From: Seonamhaeicola sp. S2-3
GTDB lineage: Bacteria > Bacteroidota > Bacteroidia > Flavobacteriales > Flavobacteriaceae
Length of the DNA stretch: 64,000 nt
Reading direction: 5' to 3'
NCBI RefSeq assembly: GCF_001971785.1
Contig: NZ_CP019389.1
Location: forward strand, 2,181,001 to 2,245,000
The notes below the pieces were generated by a model. It made no database searches. It saw nothing but the letters and a program-made list of their open reading frames with translations, and had not been told where the DNA came from. Numbering within the stretch: position 1 is the first letter of the stretch; each line of letters starts with the position of its first letter. Shown piece by piece: positions 14,317-64,000 of the stretch. The position numbers and the translations under genes are program-made.

Positions 14317-14336
14317 ATTTCTTTATTTTTTTAACT

Positions 14337-15314: not shown

Positions 15315-15381
15315 GTTTAATTTTTATTTAGTAAAAAATACTTATAAGGTATTTTTTGGTACATGAGATTTTAATGCATTA

Positions 15382-17667: not shown

Positions 17668-17670
17668 TTA

Positions 17671-18756: not shown

Positions 18757-18764
18757 ATTGAGTA

Positions 18765-19823: not shown

Positions 19824-19828
19824 GTCTA

Positions 19829-20794
19829 TTATATGCTGTTTGTTTTTGTGAATTCTAGTATTTCACTAATATAGCAAAAGGCTAGGGCTACCACGGTATC
19901 TGCGCCTCCATAGTAAATGGTTGCTTTATCGTTTTCTACATCTTGTAACGCCGCACAAGGGAAAATTACATTGGGGACATCGCCTACCTGTTCATATATT
20001 TCTGAAGGTGTTAGCAAGTAGGGCTGTGTTCTGTACTTTACAATATGAGGTTGGTCTGTATCTAAAATCGCGGAACCCATGGCATATCTAAATCCGTTAC
20101 AGGTATTTATAACCCCATGATAAAACATAAGCCATCCTTCATTGGTTAAAAAGGGCACAGAGCCAGCTCCAATTTTTGTGCACTGCCACGCACTATCTTT
20201 GAAAGATGTAGGAGACATCATGTGCCGGTGCTCTCCCCAGTATTTCATATCGGGACTGTAACTCATATAGATATCTCCAAAAGGCGTGTGGCCGTTATCG
20301 CTTGGGCGACTCATCATAGCATATTTTCCATCAATTTTTTGTGGTAATAATACCCCGTTTCTATTGAAAGGTAAAAAGGCACTTTCACATTGAAAGAACT
20401 CTTTAAAATCGAAGGTATAACCAATACCAATAGTAGGGCCATTATGGCCTTCACACCAGGTAATCCAGTAGCGGTCTTCTAAAAACACCACTCTGGGGTC
20501 GTATTTATAATCGCCAAGAACTTGATTTTTATCGTGAGCTTTAAATTTAATAGGGGTCTCGTTGATGCTCCAATCTATGCCATTGTCACTAAAACCTGCA
20601 AAAATATTCATTTGCACTGCTTTATTATCGCACCTAAATACACCTGCAAAACCATCTTTATATGGCACTACGGCACTATTAAAAACGCTGTTGGATGTAG
20701 GAATGGCATCACGATTAATAATGGGGTTTTGGCTATAACGCCATACTACATCTTTTGACTCTTTAGGTCTTTCTTCCCAAGGAATTAGCTTCAT
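19829..20794 (-). CDS. GH130 phosphorylase, probably beta-1,4-mannosyl-N-acetylglucosamine phosphorylase
   Basis: This 321-residue protein has no signal peptide, so it is cytoplasmic. It has the GH130 pattern [20 protein letters not shown] at the N-terminus and [14 protein letters not shown] with the likely proton-donor Asp, followed by [10 protein letters not shown]. Several GH130 phosphorylases release alpha-mannose-1-phosphate from beta-1,4-linked mannosides. The N-terminal block resembles the group acting on Man-beta-1,4-GlcNAc, the core disaccharide of N-glycans. Its position directly after a sodium:solute symporter fits import of that disaccharide and phosphorolysis inside the cell. The family is secure; the exact substrate is inferred, and beta-1,2-mannosidase or beta-mannobiose activity is the main alternative. 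Confidence 0.88.
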
Positions 20795-20802
20795 TTTTTT
20801 AA

Positions 20803-22680
20803 TTAATTTTTATACTTCCTTACTTTATCTAACCAAGTAAATTTTAAAATTACAGAAGTTACTGCAAATAGTATCAAAACGCAAAACATATTTGTGTAAT
20901 CTCTAATCATAAAGTAAATAGGCAACAATATCATACTGGATTGCCAAACAATTCCAATAACACAGTTAAACATATCGATTGGAAAATCGTTATTTTTCTT
21001 AAAAACAGGATTGGTATCTTTAATAGACTTAAAAACAGGATTCCACCAACCCCAAGGCCTTACATTAGTGTAGAAGTTTTTAAGGGTATTTATATTTGTA
21101 GGAGGGGTTAAAAAAGTACCCAAAAATGCCCCAACTAATGAGAGTATAAGTATCACTGGAAAAGCATAAATAGCAGGTAAAGTTGCGGCTTCATACATAA
21201 TTGAGCCCACTATAAAGTTATTCTGGTTTTGTTCCAAAACAAATTGCAGGGTTGCTACTACAAGTCCTGCTGCCATTCCCCAAAAGTAGCCCCATCCATT
21301 AAAACGCCACCAAATCCATTTCAAAAGGTTAGCTGCAACATAGCCTCCATATAGTGCACTTGTTATCCACAATGTAATTGAGTTTATAGATTCAGCAAAA
21401 AAGCCCATGATAACACCCAAAATTACAATACCAAAAGAAGCAAGATGGCTTGCTCTTATATAATGTTTTTGAGTAGCTTCTGGTTTAAAATATTTTTTAT
21501 AAATATCATTTACAATATAAGCGGGTCCTGAATTTACAAACGCTGAAAATGTAGACATAAATGCTGCTAAAAGCCCTGCTAAAAGTATCCCTTTAATACC
21601 AACAGGAACATGATGATTTATAACTTTAGGTAAAATTATTTCTAAATCATTTGTAGATAGTGTATTTGATACAGCCATGTCTGGAGCAATAAATACTAAA
21701 CCTAAAATAACAATTCCTGCTATAAGCAAATATCTAGGAATGAATAAAACCAAATTAGTAAATCCACTCATATAGGCCGCCTCTTTTACGGAGCGTGTAG
21801 AGAGTATACGTTGCATATCATAGCTTGGGGTAGGTCCAGCGATACTGGCAAAGAACCCCTTGAACAAGGACATGCCAATAAATGCTCCAAACATTTTATA
21901 ACCTTGCGTATCAATTAAATCGTTAAAGGCTTGGTATTTACCATCCCAGAATCCATCGAGCTCCCAACCAAAAAAGACGGTACTCCATTCTTTTGAAATA
22001 ACAGTCTCTAATTGTATATCTGACACTGAAATAAAAGTGTAGCTTGCAATTAAAATACCTGCTAATACCATAATGCCATATTGTAAAACTTCTGTAGCTA
22101 CAACAGAGAACATACCGCCCTTTATAGTATAAATGGTTGTTAGGAATATTATTATTAAAGCATAACTTTGGTCCGATGATAACAACACAGAATCATTAAA
22201 TATTAGTGTTAAATCCCACGGCAATATGATGGTTAAGAATTTACCAACGCCTTCAAAAAAATAAGCTATAAAACCTATCGAAGCAATAATGGCAAATATG
22301 GCGACTATTAGATGTGATGCTCTGCCAGCTTTATCATCTCCAAAGCGTGTTAAAATCCACTCAGAACCTGTCATAATATTAGAGCGCCTTATCCATGCGG
22401 CCAGAAAAACCATAACAAATATCTGGTTAAAAATGGGCCACATCCACATAAACATAAAACTTTTAACACCATATAAAAATAGGATACCAACCATCCAAGC
22501 TGTACCAGAGACATCAAACATCCCAGAGCCATTACTAAGTCCTAAATAGTACCATTTAATGCTTTTTCCTCCTAGGAAATAAGAATCCAAACCTTTGGAA
22601 GCTCTTTTGGAAATCCAAATACCAACACCTAAGGTTAGTGCTATATATACTCCAATTATTGTAACATCAATAGCGTTCAT
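20803..22680 (-). CDS. Sodium:solute symporter (SSS/SLC5 family)
   Basis: This 625-residue inner-membrane protein has about 14 hydrophobic segments. SSS features are the N-terminal helix [40 protein letters not shown], and a conserved region around [24 protein letters not shown] proteins import sugars or other small solutes with sodium. It sits between a GH92 and the GH130 gene with gaps of 3 and 8 bp. The cargo is therefore likely to be a small product of N-glycan breakdown, such as Man-GlcNAc or mannose. The last 60 residues form further membrane segments. Confidence 0.9.
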
Positions 22681-22683
22681 AAA

Positions 22684-24933
22684 TTAATTTTTTACACCCC
22701 AGGTTTTATTGGGTTCTGGACCCATTTTAAATTTTAAAGAGCCTCCGTTTATAATTTGTTTGTGAGAGATAATTGTGCTATTAAAATCTTTATCATTTAA
22801 GGTTGCTGATTGTATATAGATATTTTTATTTGATACATTTTCAGCTTCAATAACAAATGCTTTATTGTTATTTAATTTGATAGTTGTTTTCTCGAAAATA
22901 GGACTTCCTATTTCATAGTTGCCTGAAGCTGGATTCATGGGATAGAACCCCATGGCACTAAATACGTACCAAGCACTCATTTGTCCGCAGTCTTCATTAC
23001 CACTTAAGCCATTTGGAGTAGTATTGTATTGTGTGTTTAAGATATGATTTACCCAATATTGCGTGCGCCAAGGTTTATTGGCCTTGTTAAACATATAGGC
23101 AATGTGATGACTAGGTTCATTACCGTGGGCATACTGGCCGATAAGTCCTGAAATATCAACAGAAACATTGTCTCCTGTAATATCTGAGCTTTCTGTGAAT
23201 AGATGTTCTAATCTAGATGTAAAGTTTTCGTTACCGCCGTGCATAGCAATAAAATCTTCAACGGCATGAGGTACAAACCAACTATGTTGCCATGCGTTAC
23301 CTTCGGTATAATCTGTATGTTTCCTGTGGTTTGAATATTTAGGGTCAAAAGGTGTGTTCCACGACTTACCATCTTTAGATTTGCCACGCATGAAGCCAGT
23401 ATCTTTATCAAATAAATACTGATATGCTTTTGAACGTTGCATGAATAAATTAAAATCTTCTTCTTTTCCTAGTGCTTTAGCCATTTGTGCTACACACCAA
23501 TCATTATAGGCATATTCTAGAGTTATGGTAACCGATTCATCTAACAATTCATAAGGTATATAGCCAAAGGTCTTATAATGCTCTAAGCCTCTTTCATCTT
23601 GCATCATCGTGTTCTTCATTGCTTCAAAAGCTTTTTCAGCATCAAATCCGCGAATGCCTTTAAGGTAAGCTTCTACGATGACTGGTATAGAATGATAACC
23701 CGTCATGGTATTGGTTTCGTTACCGTATAATGTCCAAACTGGTAAAATTTTATTGGTTTGGTAGTATGCTAACATGGAATTTATAAAATGGGCTACCTTG
23801 TCTTTGGCGACTAAAGTAAGTAATGGGTGTTCTGCCCTAAAAGTATCCCAGAGTGAAAATGTAGAATAGGCTGTGTAATCTTGAGCTATTACAATACTGT
23901 CATTTTCCTTTCTAAATGCTCCGTTTTTGTCGCTAAATGTCACTGGTGCTAATTGACTATGGTAAAGTGCAGTATAGAACATTGTTTTTAGGGAATCTAC
24001 TGGGGTTTCAATCTTTATATTTTGTAGTGAAGTTTCCCAAATATTTTCTGCATTTTGCCTAATAGCTTCAAAATCAAAATTACCAGAGTCTAAATTTTTT
24101 TTTGCGTTTTCTATACTTACTGAAGATAATGCCACTTTAACAAAAAGTTGGTTTGTGTTTTGATTATCAAAAACTAATTGCGTAGCTGTTTTTTTACCTT
24201 TAACAGTATTGTTTTTTGTTAAATCACCTTCGTTATATAGTTTAGAGTTTTTTATGGGTTTTGAAAATTTAGCAACAAAAAACACCTTTTGGTTTTTTGC
24301 CCAACCTGTGCTAAATCTATAACCAGATACGGTTTGTGCGTCTTCAATATGTATGGCGGTTTCTCTAGGCTTATCCCAGTTTATTGCATAGCCTAAATCT
24401 AAAACCACCGATTGTTTATCGCCATCTCTAAAGGTATATTTATGATAGGCGGTTCTTTGCGATGTAGTTAACTCAACATTAATATTATGGTCTTCTAAGT
24501 AAACTTGATAATACCCAGGAGAAGCGCTCTCGTTTTTATGAGAATATTTCGATTTATAGTTTAGGCTATCTCTTCCTTTAGGTGTAGGGGATAAATCTAT
24601 CTCTCTGTTAATTGGCATGAGCAATATATCGGCTAAATCTCCAATACCTGTACCGCTTAGTGCTAAATGGCTAAAACCTATGGCTATCGAATCTGTATAG
24701 TGGTAACCTGAACACCAATCCCAATCTGATATGCCATTTACAGGGCTTACTTGTAACATACCAAAAGGCACTGTAGCTCCTGGATACGTATGCCCATGTC
24801 CTCCAGTTCCTATAAAAGTATTTACAAGATGTATTAATTTTGGTTTAGTGTTGTTTGCCAAAGAATTTTTACTTTGCTTGTTGCAAGCCAAAAGCAAAAC
24901 AGTTAATAATAAATATGATAATATATGCTTCAT
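22684..24933 (-). CDS. GH92 alpha-mannosidase, lipoprotein, first gene of the operon
   Basis: This GH92 is about 749 residues long when started at the ATG at 24933, which places a good lipoprotein signal (LLLTVLLLAC) at the N-terminus; an alternative ATG at 24960 adds nine unlikely residues. Landmarks are VNTFIGTGGHGHTYPG, SGTGIGDLADILLMP, FSLWDTFRAEHPL, NETNTMTGYHSIPVIVEAY, YAYNDWCVAQMAKALG, HGNEPSHH (Glu606) and GNEDCGQMSAWY. It heads the minus-strand operon GH92-SSS-GH130-CBM9-GHL10-GH92-asparaginase-GH92 and is transcribed away from the LytS-type kinase. A 7+7 inverted repeat sits in the shared intergenic region. Confidence 0.93.
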   Translation of the reverse strand: MKHILSYLLLTVLLLACNKQSKNSLANNTKPKLIHLVNTFIGTGGHGHTYPGATVPFGMLQVSPVNGISDWDWCSGYHYTDSIAIGFSHLALSGTGIGDLADILLMPINREIDLSPTPKGRDSLNYKSKYSHKNESASPGYYQVYLEDHNINVELTTSQRTAYHKYTFRDGDKQSVVLDLGYAINWDKPRETAIHIEDAQTVSGYRFSTGWAKNQKVFFVAKFSKPIKNSKLYNEGDLTKNNTVKGKKTATQLVFDNQNTNQLFVKVALSSVSIENAKKNLDSGNFDFEAIRQNAENIWETSLQNIKIETPVDSLKTMFYTALYHSQLAPVTFSDKNGAFRKENDSIVIAQDYTAYSTFSLWDTFRAEHPLLTLVAKDKVAHFINSMLAYYQTNKILPVWTLYGNETNTMTGYHSIPVIVEAYLKGIRGFDAEKAFEAMKNTMMQDERGLEHYKTFGYIPYELLDESVTITLEYAYNDWCVAQMAKALGKEEDFNLFMQRSKAYQYLFDKDTGFMRGKSKDGKSWNTPFDPKYSNHRKHTDYTEGNAWQHSWFVPHAVEDFIAMHGGNENFTSRLEHLFTESSDITGDNVSVDISGLIGQYAHGNEPSHHIAYMFNKANKPWRTQYWVNHILNTQYNTTPNGLSGNEDCGQMSAWYVFSAMGFYPMNPASGNYEIGSPIFEKTTIKLNNNKAFVIEAENVSNKNIYIQSATLNDKDFNSTIISHKQIINGGSLKFKMGPEPNKTWGVKN

Positions 24934-24985
24934 ATAATTTGGATTAATGTAAAAATTCATAATTTTATCGTCCTCCCAAATAAAT

Positions 24986-51535: not shown

Positions 51536-53143
51536 TTATAAAGAAACGCCTCTTTTCCAAGGAATAAAATCATTTTGATTTAATATTTTAGCCTTAGTTT
51601 GAATTTCACCACTGGCAACCTTAATAATAAACTCTAACATGTCATCAGCCATTTCTTCTATGGTTTTCTCACCACGTATCACTGCACCTGTTTCAATATC
51701 TATAATATCAGGCATCTTCTTTTTTAGTTCTGTATTTGACGATACCTTGATTATTGGTGCTATAGGATTTCCTGTGGGTGTTCCTAAACCAGTGGTAAAT
51801 AAAACAACATTTGCTCCAGAGCCTACTAACCCCGTAGTACTTTCTACATCATTTCCAGGCGTACATAATAAATTTAAACCTGGTTTATTTATATATTCAC
51901 CATAATCTAAAACGGCTTCTATTGGAGATGTTCCTGCTTTTTTAGCTGCACCAGCAGATTTCATTGCGTCTGTTATAAGTCCATCTTTAATATTGCCAGG
52001 AGATGGGTTCATGTCAAAACCTGAGCCGGCATCAACAACAGATTTTTCATAAGCTTTCATAAGCTTTAAAAACTTATCACCATCTGCATCATTAACGCAT
52101 CGATTTACGAGTTCCTGCTCTACACCGCATAACTCTGGAAATTCAGCCAATATTGCTGTGCCACCCAAAGCTACCAATAAATCGGATACAGCTCCTAATG
52201 TTGGATTAGCAGAAATACCAGAAAACCCATCAGAACCTCCACACTCCAGCCCTACCCTTAATTTGGATAAAGGAGCTGGTTTGCGTTTAATTTTATTAGC
52301 TTTTTTAAGGGCTTCAAAAGTATCTTTAATAATAGTAGATAACATTTCGTCAACCGTTCCTATCTGTTGTTGCTCATAAATAAGAATGGGTTTATTTAGG
52401 TTGGGATTTATATGGTTTAGAGCATCCTTAAAAATACTTATTTGTAAGTTTTGGCAACCTAAGCTCAATACTGTGGCTCCTGCCACATTAGGGTTATTTA
52501 TATAACCTGCCAATAATTTGGCTAAACTTTGAGAATCTTGTCTTATACCTCCACACCCTCCTGCATGTGTAATAAACTTCACATCAATATTATCAAACAC
52601 ATCGGTGGATTGTTCTATGGATGAAGTTTTATTATTACCACTTACTAACGAACGTAACAATAATTGGTGTGGGTCTACTTTTTGTTTTGTAAGTTCTTTC
52701 TCAAAAATATTTTTTAAAATTTCTATATTTCTATTTTCACAAAACACTAAAGGAAAGAACAGCCAAACATTTTCAGTTCCCACTTGTCCGTCTTCTCTAT
52801 GATAGCCCATAAATGTCCTTCCTTTCCATTTATCGATATTGGGAGCTTTCCATTTAAAAACATCAGTTCTACCAGTTACCTTTTCACTTTGGTGTTTTAC
52901 ATTTTTAGTGGTTAAAACTTCTCCTTTTTTAATGTTTCTATTAGCTGATCCTACTAGAACACCGTACATAATAATTCTATCACCGGTACTAAAATTTTGC
53001 AAAGCTAATTTATGCTTTGACTTAATATCTGTGAGCACCTTAATATCTTCTCCTTCAAAAGAAATAATTTCTCCAGCTCTTAAATCTACTAACGCAACAG
53101 CTATATTATCAGTTACGTTAACTTTAATAATTTTTTTTTGCAT
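51536..53143 (-). CDS. uxaA: Altronate dehydratase
   Basis: This 535-residue cytoplasmic enzyme of the altronate/galactarate dehydratase family has an N-terminal SAF domain (NVTDNIAVALVDLRAGEII to about residue 90). The C-terminal catalytic part has FMGYHREDGQVGTENVWLFF, THAGGCGGIRQDSQSLA, LGCQNLQI, GLECGGSDGFSGISANPTLG and TTGLGTPTGNPIAPIIKVSSN. It converts D-altronate to 2-keto-3-deoxygluconate in the galacturonate pathway. It is the last gene of the uxaC-uxaB-uxaA operon, 32 bp after uxaB. Confidence 0.94.
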   Translation of the reverse strand: MQKKIIKVNVTDNIAVALVDLRAGEIISFEGEDIKVLTDIKSKHKLALQNFSTGDRIIMYGVLVGSANRNIKKGEVLTTKNVKHQSEKVTGRTDVFKWKAPNIDKWKGRTFMGYHREDGQVGTENVWLFFPLVFCENRNIEILKNIFEKELTKQKVDPHQLLLRSLVSGNNKTSSIEQSTDVFDNIDVKFITHAGGCGGIRQDSQSLAKLLAGYINNPNVAGATVLSLGCQNLQISIFKDALNHINPNLNKPILIYEQQQIGTVDEMLSTIIKDTFEALKKANKIKRKPAPLSKLRVGLECGGSDGFSGISANPTLGAVSDLLVALGGTAILAEFPELCGVEQELVNRCVNDADGDKFLKLMKAYEKSVVDAGSGFDMNPSPGNIKDGLITDAMKSAGAAKKAGTSPIEAVLDYGEYINKPGLNLLCTPGNDVESTTGLVGSGANVVLFTTGLGTPTGNPIAPIIKVSSNTELKKKMPDIIDIETGAVIRGEKTIEEMADDMLEFIIKVASGEIQTKAKILNQNDFIPWKRGVSL

Positions 53144-53175
53144 TTTAATATTTGTGATAGTAGTAATTTAAAAAT

Positions 53176-54642
53176 TTAGTACTGTTTAGTGTAATTAGCA
53201 AAGCCAACTTCAATCCCGTTAGTATCAATTTCTTCAAGAGCTAAAGCTATGGCTTTTGATAGCCCATCTACTTTTGTTAAATCTTCATCCCAATAGTTTT
53301 TATTAGAAAGTACCTCTTTGGCTATTTGCTGATAATTGTTAGACGTCCATATTTGTGCAAAATTTCTAATAATATCGTCACTATCTTGTACGGGTAATTT
53401 TTCACCATTCCAAGTACCTTTATAAAAACGAATTAAACTTGCAAATGCATAAGTTAAATTTGTTGGTACTTTGCTGTGAATTTTCACATAGCCTAATAAA
53501 CTGGGTAATACCCTAACCTTAAATTTTGAAATGGAATTTAAGGCTATACTTGACAAATTATGAATAATGAAAGGATTCCTGAAGCGGTCAAAAATTTCTT
53601 CAGCAAAATTATTAAGTTCATTTCGATCCATATCAAGAGTATCTATAATTTCATTAAAAACGGCCTTTTTAATAAAGTTGCCAGTAAAATGGTTATCTAC
53701 AGATTGTTTTACCGTTCTGTTTCCGTAGAGGTAAGAGAAAGGAACCATTGCAGTATGTGCTCCATTTAAAATTCTAACCTTTCTAGTTCGGTAAGGCTGC
53801 ATATCGTCAACAATCTTAACATCCAAATCTGTTTTATGAAATGGCAATTTAGATTTCAACTCGTCGCCTCCTTCAATAACCCACAACAAGAATACTTCAG
53901 CAGCAACTATTAAATTATCCTGATAATCTAATTGAGCATTATAAGTTTCAATTTCATCTTTTGGGTAACCAGGTACAATTCTATCTACTAAAGTGCTATG
54001 AAATGAATTGTGCTTTAAAATCCAGTTTTTGAATTCATTACCTAAGTTCCAGTCTGAAATATACTTTAAGATAATTTCTTTTAACGCTTCAGAATTGTGG
54101 TTAATAAGTTCGCAAGGGATAATGGTTAAACCTTTTTTGGCATCACCATTAAAATGCTTAAACCGTTCATAAAGTAAAATAGTTAATTTAGCAGGAAACG
54201 AACTTGGGGGTTCCATTTTAGGGGTATCACTAGCAACATAAGCAATACCTGCCTCTGTGGTATTTGAAATTACAAACTCTAATGCTTCTTCTCTAGCTAC
54301 ACTTAAATAACTTTTGAAATCTGTATAAGGATTTACTCCTTTTACAATATTAGTTATTAGTTCTTTTTCTTGAATTTCTTCACCTTTTTTCACACCTTTC
54401 ATAAACAAGGTATACAATCCATCTTGATTATTTAACATCTGAACTAACCCCTTATCAATTGGTTGAACCACAGCTATACCAGCATTAAAATTTGCTTTTT
54501 TATTTAGTGCTTGTATGGCATATCCAATGAAGGCTCTTAAAAAGTTACCTTCACCAAATTGCACTATTTTAATGGGATACTTTTTTTTTAATCCCATATT
54601 TTGTCTTGTTAGGAGAGCTTTTTGGTTTATTTTTTTGTTCAT
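53176..54642 (-). CDS. uxaB: Tagaturonate reductase (altronate oxidoreductase)
   Basis: This 488-residue member of the mannitol dehydrogenase family has an NAD-binding start (KIVQFGEGNFLRAFIGYAIQ). Family blocks are CELINHNSEALKEII, DRIVPGYPKDEIETY and RKVRILNGAHTAMVPFSYLYG, where Lys and Asn/His form the usual catalytic cluster. It reduces D-tagaturonate to D-altronate using NADH. It sits between uxaC and uxaA in the same orientation, with 39 bp and 32 bp gaps. The mannuronate equivalent (UxuB) is a less likely alternative given the altronate dehydratase next to it. Confidence 0.92.
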   Translation of the reverse strand: MNKKINQKALLTRQNMGLKKKYPIKIVQFGEGNFLRAFIGYAIQALNKKANFNAGIAVVQPIDKGLVQMLNNQDGLYTLFMKGVKKGEEIQEKELITNIVKGVNPYTDFKSYLSVAREEALEFVISNTTEAGIAYVASDTPKMEPPSSFPAKLTILLYERFKHFNGDAKKGLTIIPCELINHNSEALKEIILKYISDWNLGNEFKNWILKHNSFHSTLVDRIVPGYPKDEIETYNAQLDYQDNLIVAAEVFLLWVIEGGDELKSKLPFHKTDLDVKIVDDMQPYRTRKVRILNGAHTAMVPFSYLYGNRTVKQSVDNHFTGNFIKKAVFNEIIDTLDMDRNELNNFAEEIFDRFRNPFIIHNLSSIALNSISKFKVRVLPSLLGYVKIHSKVPTNLTYAFASLIRFYKGTWNGEKLPVQDSDDIIRNFAQIWTSNNYQQIAKEVLSNKNYWDEDLTKVDGLSKAIALALEEIDTNGIEVGFANYTKQY

Positions 54643-54681
54643 TATTATCTAATTTTTTTTTGAAATAGTATCTTTATATGG

Positions 54682-56085
54682 TTATATGTCAAAATAATTT
54701 TTGGCATTATAGTAACTAATGTCGGCTACAATTTTTCCTAACCATTTCATTTCTTCTTTGGGTAGCTCGCCTTTTTGTACTTCTTTTCCTATTAAATTAC
54801 AAAGAATTCTACGGAAATATTCGTGTCTAGGAAATGACAGAAAGCTTCTAGAATCGGTTAACATTCCTATAAAACAGCTAATTAGTCCCATATTTGAAAG
54901 GGTGTTTATTTGTTTTTCCATACCATCTTTTTGATCTAAGAACCACCACCCAGAGCCCCATTGAATTTTACCTTTTGTACTGCCATCATTAAAGTTGCCT
55001 ATCATGGTTGCCATAACTTCATTATCTGCGGGGTTGAGATTGTAGAGTATGGTTTTTGTTAATTTATTATTATGGTCTAGTGCATTTAAGAATTTAGATA
55101 ATTTAAGGGCTTGGGGGAAATCACCAATAGAATCCCATCCAGTATCTGGACCTAAAATTTGGTACATACGCATATTATTGTTACGTAATGCACCTAAATG
55201 AAATTGCTGTACCCAACCAAATTCATGATATGTTTCGCATAAAAATAGCAATAAGGCACTCTGAAATTTAACTATTTCTTTTTTTGAAATGTTTTTATTG
55301 GACAGTTTTTTTTGAAGTATAGCGTTGACTTCTGGTTCTGTAAAATTTTCAAAGTAGATTTGTTCTAAACCATGGTCGCTCAATCTACATCCGTTATTAT
55401 GAAAATATTGTATGCGGTTTCTTAGGGCTTCACATAATGTTGAAAATGTATTAATCTCAACGTTTGATGCCTGAGATAATAATACCAGGTAGTCATTATA
55501 CTCATCTGCATTAATATATATAGATTTATCTGGCCTAAATGCGGTGCTTACCTTTATTTTAAAGTTATCTTTAGCCAATTGTTTGTGATATTTTAAACTA
55601 TCAGTGGGGTCTTCAGTAGTACATATATATTCAGCATTAACTTTTTTTAATAACTCTTTACAACTGTAGTTGCTAGAGTTTAGTTTTTCTTGTGTGATGT
55701 TCCATATTTTTTCAGCCGATTTTTCATTTAGTAAATCATAAATATCAAAATATCTGGCTAATTCTAAATGCGTCCAATGGTATAAGGGGTTACGTATAGT
55801 ATAGGGTACTGTTTTAGCCCAACTTAAAAATTTATTCTTATCTGAGGCGTTGCCTGTAATAAAAGTTTCGTCAATACCCAGTGTGCGCATAGCGCGCCAT
55901 TTATAGTGGTCGCCATTTATCCAAACCTGTGTTAAATTTTCAAAGATCTTGTTTTCTGCTATATGTTGAGGAGGTAAATGGTTGTGGTAATCTATAATAG
56001 GTGAATTTTTAGAATAATTATGATACAACTCTTCAGCGTATTCATTTTCTAATAAGAAATTATCATGTATAAATTTTGAATTCAT
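54682..56085 (-). CDS. uxaC: Uronate isomerase (glucuronate/galacturonate isomerase)
   Basis: This 467-residue UxaC of the amidohydrolase superfamily has SPIIDYHNHLPPQHIAENKI with the metal-binding HxH near the start, KWRAMRTLGIDETFITGNAS, STAFRPDKS, FGWVQQFHLGALRNNN and MIGNFNDGSTKGKIQWGSGW. It converts galacturonate to tagaturonate or glucuronate to fructuronate. It heads the minus-strand hexuronate operon; a TAnnTTTG -7 box overlapping an operator lies about 190 bp upstream. Confidence 0.95.
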   Translation of the reverse strand: MNSKFIHDNFLLENEYAEELYHNYSKNSPIIDYHNHLPPQHIAENKIFENLTQVWINGDHYKWRAMRTLGIDETFITGNASDKNKFLSWAKTVPYTIRNPLYHWTHLELARYFDIYDLLNEKSAEKIWNITQEKLNSSNYSCKELLKKVNAEYICTTEDPTDSLKYHKQLAKDNFKIKVSTAFRPDKSIYINADEYNDYLVLLSQASNVEINTFSTLCEALRNRIQYFHNNGCRLSDHGLEQIYFENFTEPEVNAILQKKLSNKNISKKEIVKFQSALLLFLCETYHEFGWVQQFHLGALRNNNMRMYQILGPDTGWDSIGDFPQALKLSKFLNALDHNNKLTKTILYNLNPADNEVMATMIGNFNDGSTKGKIQWGSGWWFLDQKDGMEKQINTLSNMGLISCFIGMLTDSRSFLSFPRHEYFRRILCNLIGKEVQKGELPKEEMKWLGKIVADISYYNAKNYFDI

Positions 56086-56279: not shown

Positions 56280-56591
56280 TACTAAAATATCATTAAATAA
56301 AATTTTAAGAAGATTTTACTCTAAAAAGTAATAATATTAGGTATTGTAATTTGCCACTAAAATTAATAGTTTGAAAAATGATATATGAGTGCTTAAAATG
56401 ATAAAATAATTACACAGTTAATAGCATCCACTTATTTATTAGTTGTACATTTAAATTGTTTTAAATGTATTAGTTGGAGGCTTGAATAACTAATACTAAT
56501 GAATAATTACATGTTTTTGACTAGATTTTACAGTTAAATTTCATAAAAGTATAAGATTTTGCACAATAAAATTTTTTTAAAAAAACTAAAT

Positions 56592-57890
56592 ATGAAATCA
56601 AATATTTCTGTGGTGCCAGCTAAAATGTTGTTGCCATTTATTTTAGTGACCTCTCTTTTTGCACTTTGGGGTTTCGCTAATGCTGTAACCGACCCCATGG
56701 TACAGGCTTTTAAAAAAGTTCTAGAGCTTTCAAACTCACAAGCTGCTTGGGTTCAAATGGCATTTTATGGAGGGTATTTTTGTATGGCATTACCGGCTTC
56801 AATATTTATGCGTAAATATTCTTATAAAACCGGTATCTTAATTGGTTTGGCATTGTATGCTGTTGGAGCTCTTTTGTTTTATCCAGCGGCCACCACAGAG
56901 GAATTTTGGTTCTTTTGTCTTGGTTTATATATTTTAACTTTTGGTTTAGCGTTTTTAGAAACAGCCGCAAACCCATATGCTTTGGCAATGGGACCAAAAG
57001 AAACTGCCACACAGCGTTTAAATTTAGCTCAAGCATTTAATCCTGTGGGGTTAATACTAGGCTTATTTGTAGCTCAACAGTTTGTGCTTAAAAATTTACA
57101 GTCTGATGATATTGAAAATTTCTCTTCACTTGACGCAGCTTCTAAAATATTAATTAAAACTTCAGATTTACTTGTAATTAGAAATCCGTATGTTATTTTA
57201 GGTTTAGTACTTATTGGCGTTTTCGTGCTGTTTTTGGTAAGCAAAATGCCACAATCTAAAGAAGAGGGAAGCCTACCAAGTATTAAAGAAACGTTTAAAA
57301 CTTTAGCTAAAAATAAAAACTATACCCTAGGGGTTTTAGCGCAAATTTTATACGTGGGGGCGCAAATTATGTGTTGGACATACATATATCAATATGCCGA
57401 AGGTATTGGTGTAGATAGCGTTACAGCAGGCTACTACCAAATGGTAGCGTTTATATTATTTACTGTGGGAAGAGCTGTGGGCACTTACATGTTGAGGTTT
57501 ATTGGTTCTGGAAAATTATTAATGTTTTTCGCATTGTTAGCCATTTCTTTGGTGTTAGGAACTATTTTTATTCAAGGAAGTTTTGGCTTATATACACTTG
57601 TGGGAGTATCCTTTTGTATGTCTTTAATGTTTCCAACGATTTACGGTATTGCTTTAGGAGACTTAACAGAGGAGCAATCTAAAATAGGGTCTGCAGGTTT
57701 GGTTATGGCTATTGTTGGTGGTGCCTTAATGCCTAAATTACAGGGTATGATAATAGATTTAGGTGGCAATGGCGTTACAGATACGCAAATTTTAGGGGTG
57801 TCTGAAGTAAATTTTTCCTTTATACTTCCTTTATTCTGCTTTATATATATTATGTGGTATGGGGCTTCTGTAAATAAACATTCTAACTAA
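56592..57890 (+). CDS. FucP-like sugar:H+ symporter (MFS)
   Basis: This membrane protein is about 432 residues long when started at the ATG at 56592; a TTG at 56559 would add 11 residues. It has about 12 transmembrane helices and the FucP signatures LFALWGFANAVTDPMVQAF, FYGGYFCMALPASIFMRKYS, FLETAANPYALAMGP and RLNLAQAFNPVGLILG. FucP-type carriers import L-fucose or related hexoses with protons. Placed opposite uxaC across a shared operator, the likely substrate is a hexuronate. Fucose remains possible by homology alone. Confidence 0.88.
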   Translation: MKSNISVVPAKMLLPFILVTSLFALWGFANAVTDPMVQAFKKVLELSNSQAAWVQMAFYGGYFCMALPASIFMRKYSYKTGILIGLALYAVGALLFYPAATTEEFWFFCLGLYILTFGLAFLETAANPYALAMGPKETATQRLNLAQAFNPVGLILGLFVAQQFVLKNLQSDDIENFSSLDAASKILIKTSDLLVIRNPYVILGLVLIGVFVLFLVSKMPQSKEEGSLPSIKETFKTLAKNKNYTLGVLAQILYVGAQIMCWTYIYQYAEGIGVDSVTAGYYQMVAFILFTVGRAVGTYMLRFIGSGKLLMFFALLAISLVLGTIFIQGSFGLYTLVGVSFCMSLMFPTIYGIALGDLTEEQSKIGSAGLVMAIVGGALMPKLQGMIIDLGGNGVTDTQILGVSEVNFSFILPLFCFIYIMWYGASVNKHSN

Positions 57891-58056
57891 TTACATAATT
57901 TAAGGTTCTGCTAGAGAGTTTAGGTAACGCAGTTACTTTTTAGGTTTTATTTATAAAAACTACCAGAAACCAAGAAAAAACACTTGTACAAATTAAAGAA
58001 ATCAGAAAAAATATTTAAATAAAAAATAGAAGGTATAATGTCATGGGGAGTGAAAT

Positions 58057-58929
58057 TTAACTGCTTTGTGCCCACTTTTTTCTATAAGCCTTCGGAGTTA
58101 AATTTTCATATTTTTTAAATTTAGAATTAAAATGTTGAATACTAGGAAAACCCGATTCAAAAGCAATATTCCCTATAGTCATATGAGGTTTATCTCTTAG
58201 TAGGTTTTTTGCATGTCCTATTCTGTATGCATTAAGGAAGTCAATAAAAGATTTTGAAGTTTTCTTTTTGAAATATCTACAAAAAGCGGGTTTTGATAAG
58301 TGAGCTATTCCTGCAATGTCATCAAGTGTTATTTTGTTTTTAAAGTTCAGGCGTACATATTCAAAAATATTATTTATTACTGTGCTATCTCTACTTTTTA
58401 AGTTAGGCTCATAATGGAGATTTGTAAGCGGAATGTAATCTTTTGTTTCCGTAAGCAAACAAAATAATTCAAAAACAAGAGTCCATTTTCTCAACCCAGA
58501 TGTTTTACTAATTTCAATAAGTTTGGGCGTAACTTGGGCACTGAATTTTTTTGAAAATAAAAGTCCTCTATCTGCTTTTTTTAATAGTATAGATAACGCA
58601 TGTAATTCTGCTGAGTTTTTAAAATTAGTATCTGTTAAATCCTTGGAAAACTGAAGTACTACAGCTTTAGCTCCTTTTTGATTACTTTTAAAATCAGTTC
58701 TATCACTTTCCCATAAATGAGGTAATCCAGAACCTAATAAAACCAAATCTCCATTAGTAAATCTAGATATGTTGTTCCCTACATATCTAGTACCGTTACC
58801 TTCTAGTATTAAGGTTAGCTCTATTTCTGGATGAAAATGCCAAGGGTGGTTAAAGTATGGCAATTCTAAATATTCGCAATGAAAAGTATTTGCATAATCA
58901 AATGTTATCTTAATAAGTGATGCTTTCAT
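58057..58929 (-). CDS. AraC-family regulator with cupin sensor domain
   Basis: This regulator is about 290 residues long when started at the ATG at 58929; the TTG at 58947 is less likely. The N-terminal cupin part has HPWHFHPEIELTLILEGNG and GDLVLLGSGLPHLWE. The C-terminal AraC domain has ITLDDIAGIAHLSKPAFCRYF and FESGFPSIQHFNSKFKKYENLTP. It is divergent from the dehydrogenase-esterase-dioxygenase-GH38 operon and is the obvious candidate to activate it, probably on sensing a sugar in the cupin pocket. Confidence 0.92.
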   Translation of the reverse strand: MKASLIKITFDYANTFHCEYLELPYFNHPWHFHPEIELTLILEGNGTRYVGNNISRFTNGDLVLLGSGLPHLWESDRTDFKSNQKGAKAVVLQFSKDLTDTNFKNSAELHALSILLKKADRGLLFSKKFSAQVTPKLIEISKTSGLRKWTLVFELFCLLTETKDYIPLTNLHYEPNLKSRDSTVINNIFEYVRLNFKNKITLDDIAGIAHLSKPAFCRYFKKKTSKSFIDFLNAYRIGHAKNLLRDKPHMTIGNIAFESGFPSIQHFNSKFKKYENLTPKAYRKKWAQSS

Positions 58930-59087
58930 AAAATTTATGGTATCCAATCTTTACAATATTACATTAATATAAATGTATTAATTTATTTTTTAAGTATAAA
59001 AAGTTAATATTCATTCATTTTATGCTAAGAATCGTGAAAAAGACAACTCGCTTATTCAATAAATTGCAAATTCTTAAAATGAAATTT

Positions 59088-60212
59088 ATGATAGCAAAAG
59101 CAGCTATAACTAATGGAAGAGGAGATTATACCATTGAAACAGTAGAAATGTTTCTTCCAAAAAGAGATGAAGTATTGGTTAAAATGAAAGCGGCAAGTAT
59201 TTGTCATACAGATTATGATTCTTTGAATTGGAATACTCCTTTAATTTTAGGACATGAAGGAGCTGGTATAGTAGAAGCTATAGGTAGTGAAATTACTAAA
59301 GTAAAGGTGGGAGATAAGGTTATATTAAATTGGGCTATTCCCTGTGGTAGATGTTTTCAATGCGATCAAATGAATCAAAATATTTGTGAAAATAATTCGC
59401 CTGTAACCGTTGGAAATCAAACAAGTGGAGGAGCTATCTCTAAAGGTCATGCAAGATTAAGTGGTACAAAATTTAAAGGCAAAGGAATACAGCGTTCATT
59501 TAATATAGGGACTTTAAGTACACATACTATAGTAAAAGAACAAGCATTAGTAAAATATGATATGCCAATCCCTTTTGGTTCGGCATCAATTTTAAGTTGT
59601 GGAGTCATGACAGGTTATGGCTCTGTAGTTAATTCTGCTCAAGTAAAAGCAGGTTCGTCTGTTGTGGTGTTGGGCACGGGTGGCGTAGGTTTAAGCGTTA
59701 TTCAAGGCGCTAAGATATCTGGAGCCTCCAAAATTATAGCCATAGATATTAATCCAAAACGTTTAAAAATGGCTGTTAAATTTGGAGCAACACACACAAT
59801 ACAGGCAGATAAAGATGATGTTAACTTGCTAAATGCCGCCGAAAAAGTAAAAGCACTAACACAAGGTCGTGGTGCAACCTATGCTTTTGAGTGTACAGCA
59901 ATACCATCCTTAGGAGCAGCACCATTAGCCATGATTCATAATGCAGGAACTGCAGTACAGGTAAGTGGCATTGAAGATGAAATAACCATAGATATGAATC
60001 TTTTTCAATGGGATAAAACCTATATAAATCCTTTATATGGAAAGTGTAGACCAGAAATAGACTTTCCTATTCTGTTGGATTTATATGAAAAGGGAGATTT
60101 ACTCTTGGATGAAATGGTAACTAATACTTATAAATTTAATGAGTTGCCAAACGCTTTTAATGATATGTTAGCAGGTAAAAATGCAAAGGGTGTAATACTT
60201 TTTGAAGATTAA
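59088..60212 (+). CDS. Zinc-dependent alcohol dehydrogenase, class III-like
   Basis: This protein is about 374 residues long; I start it at the ATG at 59088, and ATGs at 59079 and 59022 are also in frame. The medium-chain dehydrogenase catalytic zinc ligands are visible in ICHTDYDSL, GHEGAG and SILSCGVMTGYG. The structural zinc cluster is CGRCFQCDQMNQNIC, and the NAD site is VVLGTGGVGLSVIQGAK with a downstream acidic residue (IDIN). The layout resembles S-(hydroxymethyl)glutathione (formaldehyde) dehydrogenases and aryl-alcohol dehydrogenases. With an esterase D-like hydrolase and a dioxygenase next to it, oxidation of formaldehyde or of another small aldehyde or alcohol is possible. The specific substrate is unknown. 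Confidence 0.88.
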   Translation: MIAKAAITNGRGDYTIETVEMFLPKRDEVLVKMKAASICHTDYDSLNWNTPLILGHEGAGIVEAIGSEITKVKVGDKVILNWAIPCGRCFQCDQMNQNICENNSPVTVGNQTSGGAISKGHARLSGTKFKGKGIQRSFNIGTLSTHTIVKEQALVKYDMPIPFGSASILSCGVMTGYGSVVNSAQVKAGSSVVVLGTGGVGLSVIQGAKISGASKIIAIDINPKRLKMAVKFGATHTIQADKDDVNLLNAAEKVKALTQGRGATYAFECTAIPSLGAAPLAMIHNAGTAVQVSGIEDEITIDMNLFQWDKTYINPLYGKCRPEIDFPILLDLYEKGDLLLDEMVTNTYKFNELPNAFNDMLAGKNAKGVILFED

Positions 60213-60215
60213 ATT

Positions 60216-61013
60216 ATGGCATCAAAATTTAGAACAATAACAATATCAAAACCAGAGTATGAATCTAATAATGTAAGACAGATTACTGTAAAAAGTAATC
60301 ACTTAAAAGGAAGGGGAGACATTTCGGTATATGTTCCACAGGGAAGTAACTATAAAAATCTACCAATGGTTATATTGTTACACGGAGTTTATGGTAGTCA
60401 TAATTCCTGGATACATTATGCAGGAATTCATTTTAAAATGAATAAATGGATTGCAGAAGATAAACTAAAACCAATGGTTTTGGTTATGCCTTCCGATGGA
60501 TTATGGGGTGATGGTAGTGGCTATATACCGCATTCCAATAACAACTTTGAAAAATGGATAACAGAGGATACTGTAGATGCTGTTATTGAATGTGTTCCAC
60601 AAGTTAGTACACAGTCAGATTTATTCCTCACAGGGCTGTCTATGGGAGGTTTTGCAGCTTTACGTTTAGGAGCAAAGTACAGTAATAAATTTAAAGCATT
60701 TACCGGTTTATCGTCCATAACGCATTTAAATCAAATGAAGTTATTTATAGAGGAAAATATATATCAACTTCAACAAGAAAATAAACAAGAAGAATCTGTT
60801 TTAGAAACATTAATAAAATACAAACAAACTCTTTCTCCCTTTCGGTTTGATTGTGGTACTGATGATGGTTTAATTAATGAAAACAGAAAGTTACATGAAG
60901 CACTTGAGCAGGAAAATATACCACATATCTATAATGAGTATCCGGGAGCTCATAATTGGAAATATTGGGAAGTACATATTTTCAACACACTAAACTTTTT
61001 TAATAATATTTAA
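60216..61013 (+). CDS. Esterase D/S-formylglutathione hydrolase-like alpha/beta hydrolase
   Basis: This 265-residue cytoplasmic protein has no signal peptide. The alpha/beta-hydrolase fold shows MVILLHGVYGSHNSW (oxyanion region), the nucleophile elbow GLSMGGFAAL, an acid in DCGTDDGL and a histidine in PGAHNWKYW. The Esterase_D/putative-esterase family includes S-formylglutathione hydrolases, acetylesterases and feruloyl esterases. It starts 3 bp after the dehydrogenase stop and 13 bp before the dioxygenase. It could remove an acyl group from a sugar or hydrolyse a formyl thioester made by the dehydrogenase; the choice between these is open. Confidence 0.85.
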   Translation: MASKFRTITISKPEYESNNVRQITVKSNHLKGRGDISVYVPQGSNYKNLPMVILLHGVYGSHNSWIHYAGIHFKMNKWIAEDKLKPMVLVMPSDGLWGDGSGYIPHSNNNFEKWITEDTVDAVIECVPQVSTQSDLFLTGLSMGGFAALRLGAKYSNKFKAFTGLSSITHLNQMKLFIEENIYQLQQENKQEESVLETLIKYKQTLSPFRFDCGTDDGLINENRKLHEALEQENIPHIYNEYPGAHNWKYWEVHIFNTLNFFNNI

Positions 61014-61026
61014 ATTTTATAGAATC

Positions 61027-61977
61027 ATGGGATATTTAAAATCAAACGATTTATCAGAATATAATAGTCCTTTATCTAATCTATTCAAACAGCCAGAAAC
61101 ACCTGAAGAATGGATGCAATACGCATTAACCGAGGAGCAAATAGCATTTTATAAAAAGAGCGGATATCTATCTGGAGTTAAAATAATGACAGAAGCACAA
61201 GTAGATATTTTAAATGAAGAGCTGGAGAAATTACAGAAAGTGAATGAGGAACAAAAAAAGTTGTTTTATCATTATAAAAGTAATGAATCAGAAGACCCAA
61301 ACAAAGTACTTTTTCATGCTATAGGCGGGTGGCGTGTTATGTTAGGTTTTCATGATTTATTATGGGCACCAGCTTTTAGAATGGCAGCTTATCAATTAAT
61401 GGGAAATTCATATAGGTTATTTCATGACCAGCTATTTTGCAAGCCAGCTAAACACGGTGGTGTAGTGGCGTGGCATCAAGACTTTTCTTACTGGACATTT
61501 ACCAAACCAATGAATCACTTAACATGTTGGATGGGACTTGATGATGCCAATACAGAAAATGGCTGCCTATACTATATACCAAACAGTCATAACTGGGGGT
61601 TGTTGCCAATTACAGGGCTTACTGGAGATATGGATGCTGTAAAAGAAGTGTTAAATTCAGAGCAATTAAAAGATTTTAACAATAAAAAAGCAAACGTGCT
61701 TCCTAAAGGATATGCCAGTTTTCATCATCCACTAATGATGCATGGGTCTTACACAAATAATTCGGAACGTTCTCGAAGAGCAGTTGTTGTTAATGTGATG
61801 GATACCAACACAAAATCTAATATATCCAGTTTCGAGAGACAAGAGGATTTAAAGGATTTTCCGCCTATGGGAGTAGACGGAGATATATTAAATGACAAAT
61901 GTTTTCCTATTTTGTTTAATCCAGATATTGAGTTAGGAAAATTAAAAAAAGAAATTTTAACAGTAAATAATGCATAG
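61027..61977 (+). CDS. PhyH-family Fe(II)/2-oxoglutarate-dependent dioxygenase
   Basis: This 316-residue cytoplasmic protein of the phytanoyl-CoA dioxygenase family has the iron ligands WHQDFSYW (HxD) and the distal histidine with the 2-oxoglutarate-binding arginine in HHPLMMHGSYTNNSERSRR. The segment TCWMGLDDANTENGCLYYIP is typical of PhyH. These enzymes hydroxylate C-H bonds, and hydroxylation of an O-methyl group releases formaldehyde. Co-operonic dehydrogenase and esterase genes and a downstream GH38 suggest modification of a mannose derivative. This is inference; other hydroxylations are possible. Confidence 0.9.
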   Translation: MGYLKSNDLSEYNSPLSNLFKQPETPEEWMQYALTEEQIAFYKKSGYLSGVKIMTEAQVDILNEELEKLQKVNEEQKKLFYHYKSNESEDPNKVLFHAIGGWRVMLGFHDLLWAPAFRMAAYQLMGNSYRLFHDQLFCKPAKHGGVVAWHQDFSYWTFTKPMNHLTCWMGLDDANTENGCLYYIPNSHNWGLLPITGLTGDMDAVKEVLNSEQLKDFNNKKANVLPKGYASFHHPLMMHGSYTNNSERSRRAVVVNVMDTNTKSNISSFERQEDLKDFPPMGVDGDILNDKCFPILFNPDIELGKLKKEILTVNNA

Positions 61978-62022
61978 AGTAAAATAAGGAATTTGCAATT
62001 AAAACACTAAATAAGAATTACC

Positions 62023-64000
62023 ATGAAATGGAACAAAACATCAGTATTTAACATAATAGTGCTATTAGTATTTAATAGTACAATAATGTTAGCTCAAAGA
62101 AATCAAAGACCAAATGAAATATTTATATCTGGGTATCAAGAAAAAATATCTGGAAATGAAATTGAACACCGCTCAAAAGAAGTAGAAGGGCTAAATCAAA
62201 CGTTGGTTTCTAGAGCTAACGTAGGGAATCAAAAAATAGAGTGGGAAACAGCTCCCGTTTCTGTAAATAAAAAAAGTGGAGAAGTAACTTTTGTACATTA
62301 TGCAGGATATTATGGAGACCGCCCCGGGACTAAATTTAATTTCTTTGTAAACGGAAAGAAAAGAGGGCAAATAGCTACAGCTACTGCTAAACAAACTAGG
62401 TGGACTTTACCTCTTGAGAATAATGAAACACTAAGTTTTGAACGTCATTATTTAGATGATAATTACGGATGTTTCGGTTTTTTGTATTATACCGTGCCTG
62501 CTAAAAGCATAAAAAAAGGAACAACTTTAAAATTAAGTATTGAAGGAGTAAATGAAAAATCAAATACCTATTTCAAAATATTTAAAAAGAACTTAACAGA
62601 AGCTATAAATGTAACCCCTTTACCAGCGCTCATTAACACAAAAAATGGTAAAGTACAAACGTTATCAACAGAAATTGTTTTTATAAAAAAACCAGCAAAA
62701 GGAAAACTTTTTATTGATGGGAAATTTGATAGAGAAATTAATTTAAAACCAGGAGCACAAACTATTAAAATACTTTACCCTGAGGTGAAAAAAGAGAAAA
62801 TAGTAACTCTAAAGTTAGACTTAGGTGATGACGAAATAGTTACAAAAGTAAAATTGAAACCCATAAAAAAGTGGCATGTAAACTTTGTACAGCATTCTCA
62901 CACAGATATTGGATATACAAGGTCTCAAACCGAAATTTTAGCTGAACACCCACGTTATATAGATTATGCTTTAGATTATTGTGATGCTACTGACGATTTT
63001 CCTGAAACCTCAAAATTTAGATGGACTTGTGAAGCATCTTGGGCGGTAGATGAGTTTTTAAATAGTAGGTCTCAAACCCAAATTGATAGATTAAAGCAAC
63101 GTGTTAAAGAGGGGAGAATTGAAGTAACAGGAATGTATTTTAATTTTAACGAACTACCTGATGAGCAATCATTAGCTGCTTCTTTAGCACCAATTAAAAA
63201 TATTTCAGAGAAAGGAATAAAAATAACTTCAGCAATGCAAAACGATGTTAACGGTATTGCGTGGTGTATGAACGATTATTTTAATTCTTTAAATATTAAA
63301 TATTTAACCATGGGTACCCATGGGCATAAAGCACTTATATCTTTTGATACTCCTTTAGCATTTTGGTGGGTATCTCCTTCAGGAAAAAAGATGCTAACCT
63401 TTAGGGCAGAGCATTATATGGCAGGTAACGCTATAGGTGTGCATACTGATGATTTTGAAGATTTTGAAAAACGACTACTTGAGTATTTAGTTAAGCTTGA
63501 GGAAAGAGGTTATCCCTATGATAAAACGGCATTGCAGCATTCTGGTTTTATGACCGATAACTCACCACCATCTATGAAATCTAGCCATTTGATTAAACAA
63601 TGGAATGAAAAATATGAATGGCCAAAAATAAAAACAGCTGTAGCAAAAGATTTTTTCGAAGATTTTGAGAAAGAATACGGAGATGAATTAATAGAAGTAA
63701 AAGGGCACTGGCCAGATTGGTGGACCGATGGTTTTGCTTCTGGAGCCAGAGAAGTAGCAGCCACTCGAAATGCTCATGCAGATCTTATTGCTGGACAAGG
63801 TGGTTTGTCTATGGCTAAATTATTGGGGGCTAAAATGCCAAAAGGTATATCGAACCGCATATTTGAAACAAATAAGGCACTCTTGTTTTATGGAGAGCAT
63901 ACATTTGGAGCACAAGGAAGTGTTGGAGATCCTTATGGTAAAGCCACAATGGAGCAACGCGAAATTAAAGAATCATATGCTTGGGAAGCTTCAAGACGTT
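62023..64000 (+). CDS. GH38-type alpha-mannosidase (subtype A), 3' end outside the window
   Basis: The first 659 codons of a GH38 gene that runs off the right edge. A signal peptide (IIVLLVFNSTIMLAQ) is followed by an N-terminal beta-rich region, then the catalytic motifs QHSHTDIGYT (His291, His293, Asp295), MQNDVNGIAWCM with the likely nucleophile Asp, YGEHTFGAQG and WPDWWTDGFASG. Many blocks are shared with the subtype A protein at 6251-9658, such as EILAEHPRYIDYALDYC and KFRWTCEASWAVDEFL. It lies 45 bp after the dioxygenase gene and is probably the fourth gene of that operon. If so, this mannosidase may supply the substrate for the dioxygenase. Confidence 0.88.
   Translation, partial: MKWNKTSVFNIIVLLVFNSTIMLAQRNQRPNEIFISGYQEKISGNEIEHRSKEVEGLNQTLVSRANVGNQKIEWETAPVSVNKKSGEVTFVHYAGYYGDRPGTKFNFFVNGKKRGQIATATAKQTRWTLPLENNETLSFERHYLDDNYGCFGFLYYTVPAKSIKKGTTLKLSIEGVNEKSNTYFKIFKKNLTEAINVTPLPALINTKNGKVQTLSTEIVFIKKPAKGKLFIDGKFDREINLKPGAQTIKILYPEVKKEKIVTLKLDLGDDEIVTKVKLKPIKKWHVNFVQHSHTDIGYTRSQTEILAEHPRYIDYALDYCDATDDFPETSKFRWTCEASWAVDEFLNSRSQTQIDRLKQRVKEGRIEVTGMYFNFNELPDEQSLAASLAPIKNISEKGIKITSAMQNDVNGIAWCMNDYFNSLNIKYLTMGTHGHKALISFDTPLAFWWVSPSGKKMLTFRAEHYMAGNAIGVHTDDFEDFEKRLLEYLVKLEERGYPYDKTALQHSGFMTDNSPPSMKSSHLIKQWNEKYEWPKIKTAVAKDFFEDFEKEYGDELIEVKGHWPDWWTDGFASGAREVAATRNAHADLIAGQGGLSMAKLLGAKMPKGISNRIFETNKALLFYGEHTFGAQGSVGDPYGKATMEQREIKESYAWEASRR

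Follow-up and report, generated by a model that had tools for sequence, protein, structure and literature searches.

A PhyH-type dioxygenase paired with an alcohol dehydrogenase and an esterase in Seonamhaeicola: a candidate sugar O-demethylation cassette

The 64,000-nucleotide stretch analysed here (hereafter the window; Seonamhaeicola sp. S2-3, NZ_CP019389.1, positions 2,181,001 to 2,245,000) ends in a compact gene group: a regulator of the AraC family followed by a zinc-dependent alcohol dehydrogenase (ADH), an alpha/beta esterase (EST), a PhyH-type Fe(II)/2-oxoglutarate dioxygenase (hereafter PhyH) and a member of glycoside hydrolase (GH) family 38 (Table 1). A preliminary description had remarked on the tight spacing of the ADH, EST and PhyH genes ahead of GH38, and proposed that the dioxygenase replaces the cytochrome P450 of known sugar demethylases and acts on methyl-mannose. 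The open reading frames (ORFs) lie where it had placed them, all on one 3.75-Mb single-contig genome, and both the gaps (74, 3, 13 and 45 bases, from AraC to GH38) and the Pfam families agree with it. A promoter and terminator scan returned sites no commoner than in shuffles. The gene arrangement is not due to chance, as it recurs in several genera.

Table 1. Features of the window discussed in the text (positions are those of the window)
Feature	Position	Strand	Remarks
AraC-family regulator	58057-58947	-	divergent from operon; Pfam HTH_18 8e-20, AraC_binding 5.5e-6
Zn-dependent ADH, FoADH/ZoADH type	59088-60212	+	Pfam ADH_N+ADH_zinc_N; frame open from 59022
Alpha/beta esterase (EST)	60216-61013	+	Pfam Esterase PF00756
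PhyH-type Fe(II)/2-oxoglutarate dioxygenase, candidate sugar O-demethylase	61027-61977	+	PF05721 8e-30
GH38 alpha-mannosidase-like	62023-64000, extends beyond window end	+	Glyco_hydro_38N PF01074 8e-28
FucP-family sugar importer	56559-57890	+	TIGR00885 505 bits, cut-off 280; directly upstream of cassette
N-glycan-type gene group	12061-24960	-	~34 kb from cassette; GH92 x3, glycosylasparaginase, GH130, SSF transporter (Pfam)
Glycosylasparaginase	14337-15314	-	413 bits to 9gaa/1p4k
GH130	19829-20794	-	closest to UHGB_MP 4udg, 492 bits

The dioxygenase belongs to the PhyH family (PF05721; 105 bits vs. a gathering score of 22), and the HxD...H...R motif first seen in it holds up as a conserved site, with H150-x-D152, H239 and R250 invariant in a 23-row alignment. 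We take H150, D152 and H239 to be the metal triad and R250 the arginine that binds 2-oxoglutarate; PhyH-type enzymes need 2-oxoglutarate, not NADH. An AlphaFold model (predicted local distance difference test score 85.7) matched 2-oxoglutarate oxygenases in Foldseek, with RESC14, SnoK, SnoN and MysH first in the list, human PHYH at rank 40 and PHYHD1 at ranks 43 and 45. PhyH-family enzymes remove the methyl group from 2'-O-methyl nucleosides (PMC12709175; this paper, PMC10033563 and PMC6344472 are cited from excerpts throughout), so O-demethylation of a sugar ether would lie within the chemistry of the family.

The nearest solved relatives of the ADH (phmmer) are FoADH (8h2a, 569 bits) and ZoADH (8h2b, 532 bits), the third-best match reaching only 191 bits. 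It aligns with both throughout, the likeness to FoADH starting at about 59088 although the frame opens upstream of this, and comparison of C39, H56, C86, C89, C92, C100 and C171 (numbered from 59088) with the zinc ligands given in PMC10033563 places it in the same type. In the 6-O-methyl-galactose clusters described there, such an ADH is found with a P450, its redox partners and an esterase, and the ADH gene is required for normal growth on 6-O-methyl-galactose. EST has GLSMG at residue 140, and its nearest solved structures are ferulic acid esterases. The class III layout and the esterase D likeness of the preliminary description stand as far as fold is concerned, but not as family membership: the ADH scores 217 bits against class III ADH (TIGR02818, cut-off 543.95) and 240 bits against mycothiol-dependent formaldehyde dehydrogenase (TIGR03451, cut-off 513), and EST scores 24 bits against S-formylglutathione hydrolase (TIGR02821, cut-off 281.7). 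Because these cut-offs are missed, and because FoADH and ZoADH showed, in the excerpts, no formaldehyde activity alone or with a thiol (PMC10033563), the idea that formaldehyde is detoxified here by a class III ADH and an S-formylglutathione hydrolase is not borne out.

The partnership between these enzymes was followed in 299 genomes of the same family, the source genome (G000) counted, at thresholds of E≤1e-60 for PhyH, E≤1e-90 for the ADH and E≤1e-80 for the P450 of the 6-O-methyl-galactose type, and about 20 kb was read around each of 32 ADH and 29 PhyH matches. The ADH occurred in 32 genomes, a PhyH homologue in 29 and the P450 in 21. All 21 P450 genomes also carry the ADH, and all 11 ADH genomes that lack the P450 have a PhyH homologue, vs. 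24 of all 278 P450-less genomes (hypergeometric, 1.6e-13, with kinship ignored and with G000 and G153 being near-copies); G000 itself has no such P450 at E≤1e-80. Seven of these eleven PhyH genes lie in the ADH locus (six adjoin ADH-EST and one is ~6 kb away) and four lie elsewhere; the four unlinked genes alone give 1.1e-5, kinship again ignored. EST is near the ADH in 32/32 loci, in four of them with one gene of ~836 aa between, and an AraC homologue lies within 6 kb of the ADH in 25/32. Both oxygenases are present in 5/21 P450 genomes and share a locus in one of these (L089), as they do in Ulvibacterium marinum (L178). An order-level genome sample yielded no further matching genome.

On a 37-row ADH tree, PhyH-only vs. 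P450-only partnership (counted on 31 rows, with the six rows that have both or neither oxygenase omitted) requires five changes, at least three of them forced by supported branches. Shuffling the partner label gives a mean of 9.2 changes, the real label being the more clustered of the two, and the tree thus indicates that partners have been swapped more than once, though not freely. These comparisons support the view that one ADH-EST pair takes either PhyH or the 6-O-methyl-galactose P450 system as its partner, and PhyH probably takes the place of the P450 as sugar O-demethylase, in keeping with what had been proposed for this locus.

A second sample of 395 class-level genomes contained the ADH in 11, nine of them new; in these nine, whose loci were also read, the searches used the L176 PhyH at E≤1e-15 and the P450 at E≤1e-40. 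The P450 adjoins the ADH in G367, G952 and G1005, and PhyH adjoins it in G837; a divergent PhyH missed by the search (PF05721, 80 bits) lies ~4 kb from the ADH in G1009, and G946 has both oxygenases, elsewhere than at the ADH locus. EST is whole beside the ADH in six of the nine and starts at the contig end in a seventh; the G1005 contig ends too early to judge. The partner rule is strong within the family and weaker outside it.

The likely substrate was approached through the relatives of PhyH. A named-genome scan with the PhyH alignment provided the best 80 of at least 552 loci, 75 of which gave a PhyH ORF for a tree of 104 rows (101 of them distinct, the pairs L083/L184, L095/L180 and L150/L151 being identical; L116 omitted as a copy of the source locus). 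The window PhyH falls in a 21-row clade (SH-aLRT, a branch support test, 100) that includes Pedobacter, Niastella, Niabella, Chitinophaga, Seonamhaeicola and others. A GH38-like gene (one whose best blastp match is to a window GH38, at E≤1e-12 and covering half or more of the shorter protein; the stretches compared ran to ~21 kb at most, several contigs being shorter) is found in 10/21 loci of this clade vs. 0/83 outside it, and in 8/19 once the window and its near-copy G153 are set aside. The four-gene set of the preliminary description is therefore conserved in part: ADH and EST stay together and are accompanied by PhyH or the P450, whereas GH38 belongs to only part of the clade of the window PhyH. 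A sugar-porter-like gene occurs in 8/19 and a ROK/isomerase-like gene in 4/19 named clade loci, and in Seonamhaeicola aphaedonensis (L134) the genes for GH38, ADH, EST, PhyH, a porter and GH92 are consecutive. The window GH38 matches its family (98 bits vs. a gathering score of 25 for Glyco_hydro_38N), and its full ORF encodes 1156 aa (L004 5023-8493 in the genome sequence), for which no PDB sequence matched at E≤0.001. In the soil genera, the GH38-like proteins are distantly related to the window GH38 (~25 % identity); when retested against Pfam GH38, two gave weak scores and a third gave no match at E≤1e-6. The window-type PhyH of L120, L127, L129 and L133 has a further, distantly related PhyH-like gene within a few kb; the Pfam check covers that of L120 alone.

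The surroundings of the cassette lend support to the mannose setting that had been proposed. In addition to the group on the opposite strand (Table 1), whose glycosylasparaginase and GH130 presumably act in N-glycan breakdown, the window holds GH125 and three further GH38 genes; downstream of the cassette follow a sugar porter and SusC/SusD-like genes (judged by eye), and then mannose-6-phosphate isomerase, GH92 and GH38. The FucP-family importer is likely to be a partner of the cassette, and the G153 cassette also has a FucP gene upstream. The source bacterium appears to feed on mannose-rich glycans. At L005 10511-16620, SDR (short-chain dehydrogenase/reductase), lactonase and UxuA-like genes downstream of mannosidases hint at an oxidative route leading from mannose to 2-keto-3-deoxygluconate. 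Methylated mannose is found in algal N-glycans: Chlorella vulgaris has the 3-O- and 3,6-di-O-methyl forms, and Porphyridium and Chlamydomonas have the 6-O-methyl form (PMC6344472). Methyl-mannose is the favoured candidate substrate of PhyH on account of the GH38-like genes in clade loci and of the glycosylasparaginase, GH130, GH92 and GH125 of the window.

Taken together, we consider it rather probable that the group is an oxidative sugar O-demethylation cassette in which PhyH acts on O-methylated mannose and the ADH-EST pair oxidises the one-carbon unit. We infer the demethylation itself, the mannose substrate, the import step and the formate product, as follows. Exported GH38 and GH92 enzymes would release O-methylated mannose, which would be imported into the cytoplasm; by eye, GH38 has a signal-like N-terminus and ADH, EST and PhyH have no signal, so demethylation would come after import. 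With Fe(II), O2 and 2-oxoglutarate, PhyH would then hydroxylate the O-methyl group to sugar-O-CH2OH, the decomposition of which would give mannose and a one-carbon unit for the ADH-EST pair to oxidise, probably to formate. As the ADH-EST pair goes with a P450 in some glycan contexts and with a 2-oxoglutarate enzyme in others, the common element would be this one-carbon product. A hint that formate is what the pair makes comes from Chitinophagaceae bacterium 26-R-25 (L124 15590-18906), where FdhD and an FdhF/YdeP oxidoreductase, each above its own family cut-off, follow ADH-EST with gaps of a few bases.

A number of observations weigh against this reading, in whole or in part. At 288 bits, the L124 oxidoreductase stays below the cut-off of 666 for formate dehydrogenase alpha, and in a search for further FdhD/FdhF pairs beside ADH-EST, L124 was the sole locus. 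No GH38-like gene was present in the stretches read for 11/21 loci of the window clade, and three Chitinophaga loci in the clade have a GH120-like protein and an isomerase-like TIM barrel as neighbours; mannose may thus not suit every clade member, and some loci suggest a pentose. The ADH is absent at E≤1e-50 from 17/19 genomes with a window-type PhyH (genome completeness not given), which implies that the ADH-EST pair is not always needed and that those genomes must dispose of the carbon in another way. Within the family, 13/29 PhyH genomes have no such ADH. Among the nine new class-level ADH genomes, three (G871, G975 and G989, the last with a contig of 5.9 kb) showed neither PhyH nor P450, and G952, which has the P450, has no EST within the 20 kb read. 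Finally, window 57937-64000 and L064 8476-14542 (G153) are 99.2 % identical in DNA, so the two copies are near-identical; since G153 is assigned to another genus, this reflects either recent transfer or near relatives.

How the ADH-EST pair would handle the one-carbon unit admits two fitting options, which we rate about level and each of which we hold only tentatively. In the first, oxidation by the ADH would turn the hemiacetal, sugar-O-CH2OH, into a formate ester of the sugar, which EST would then cleave to sugar and formate, with no free formaldehyde. The likeness of EST to ferulic acid esterases and the indifference of FoADH and ZoADH to every thiol tried argue for this route. If true, it would be the oxygen counterpart of the S-hydroxymethyl-/S-formyl-glutathione route, would serve P450 and PhyH demethylases alike, and would explain why FoADH and ZoADH ignore formaldehyde, methyl-galactose and galactose in the excerpts (PMC10033563) despite the need for the gene. 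In the second, considered by Brott et al., the pair would oxidise formaldehyde via an unknown thiol; this bears on the final step alone and is compatible with PhyH acting on methyl-mannose. It fits the recurrence of ADH-EST with two unrelated oxygenases, the FdhD/FdhF-like genes that follow the pair in L124, and the source genome, where HxlA and S-formylglutathione hydrolase matches all fell under the family cut-offs. On the other side stand the missed class III and S-formylglutathione hydrolase cut-offs, the narrow active site of FoADH and ZoADH, and their inactivity with eight thiols, those named in the excerpts being glutathione, mycothiol, bacillithiol, cysteine, coenzyme A, ergothioneine and aromatic thiols (PMC10033563).

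Somewhat more doubtful is that the cassette does the same work on another methyl sugar (methyl-fucose, methyl-galactose, methyl-xylose or 4-O-methyl-glucuronate) and that GH38 is a bystander. PhyH homologues elsewhere (L071, L083, L184, L190, L195 and others) adjoin several of lactonase, Zn-ADH, SDR, UxaA/UxaB-like, 2-keto-3-deoxy-6-phosphogluconate aldolase, GH29 and sulfatase genes. A set of lactonase, Zn-ADH, SDR and aldolase resembles a breakdown pathway for L-galactose or L-fucose, and such neighbours possibly mark a second methyl sugar for the PhyH family. The window PhyH, however, lies in a separate, well-supported clade with its own GH38-like genes. Closer to home, UxaC, UxaB and UxaA (window 51536-56085) and the FucP-family transporter lie left of the cassette, and G153 too has UxaA (81 %) beyond FucP (L228 15953-17557), both of which speak for another sugar and count against mannose; yet the 19.5 kb left of the G153 cassette contain no UxaB or UxaC match and do contain GH125- and GH92-like matches. 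A methylated uronate, suggested by the adjacent UxaA/B/C, was considered as substrate and set aside, as the UxaA/B-like genes of several relatives accompany the L-galactose/L-fucose-like set; the UxaA left of FucP in G153 weakens this case against a uronate. The window UxaC/UxaB/UxaA beside mannosidases are perhaps for glucuronate from a glucuronomannan-like glycan.

A hydroxylation target other than a methyl ether, such as a sugar ring carbon or a phosphonate, is unlikely for PhyH. The PhyH family performs many reactions, and two weak matches could be read in this way, one to methylphosphonate hydroxylase with 62 bits against a cut-off of 500, the other to ectoine hydroxylase with 37 bits against a cut-off of 337; against it, the partner genes are shared with a proven demethylase, and O-demethylation is known for members of the family (PMC12709175). 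Least credible, and in our view very improbable, is that the ADH serves to regenerate the NADH used by the P450 redox chain, which Brott et al. (PMC10033563) brought up but themselves doubted, since ADH-EST also accompanies PhyH, an oxygenase needing no NADH, in seven loci of genomes without this P450, which shifts the focus to the common one-carbon product.

The G153 locus differs from the window in a ~6.9-kb block between FucP and AraC (PSCyt/DUF1549-DUF1553, DUF1501 and two more genes) that is absent in the window. In 13/75 named PhyH loci, many of them from Verrucomicrobia (L136, L137, L138, L140, L141, L143, L144, L146, L152, L168, L179, L183 and L186), PhyH has a DUF1501-like gene at a distance of 5 kb or less, and in L137 this gene comes after a PSCyt2/PSD1 gene. 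The link of the DUF1501/PSCyt families to sugar oxygenases is unexplained.

Methylation can protect algal glycans; that of Chlorella vulgaris N-glycans gave resistance to jack bean mannosidase (PMC6344472). Demethylation without a P450 would widen the range of bacteria using such glycans, and the swap of partners bears on the role of the required but orphan ADH in 6-O-methyl-galactose users. The preliminary description as a whole is thus partly supported: its observation is sound and its main idea well supported by comparison, while its formaldehyde part needs restating. It had known of no described system of this kind; a P450-ADH-esterase arrangement has been described (PMC10033563), and for the PhyH version no report was seen in searches of an open-licence library.

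Three known systems invite comparison. With class III ADH and S-formylglutathione hydrolase, the cassette shares the logic of a dehydrogenase plus an alpha/beta esterase, but its ADH and EST both fall short of those families. With the PHYHD1/FJS 2'-O-methyl nucleoside demethylases (PMC12709175), which O-demethylate a sugar ether, the window PhyH shares the PhyH fold family and the HxD...H site; it is distant from them (16-18 % identity to PHYHD1, Foldseek) and is a candidate demethylase in a glycan cluster. The closest counterpart is the P450-ferredoxin-reductase system for 6-O-methyl-D-galactose of Formosa agariphila and Zobellia galactanivorans (PMC10033563), which has in common with the window the ADH type, a neighbouring esterase, often an AraC neighbour, a place in a glycan-use cluster and, as we infer, the overall job; in the window, however, the oxygenase is a 2-oxoglutarate dioxygenase rather than a P450 with redox partners, and the glycan context is mannose rather than porphyran.

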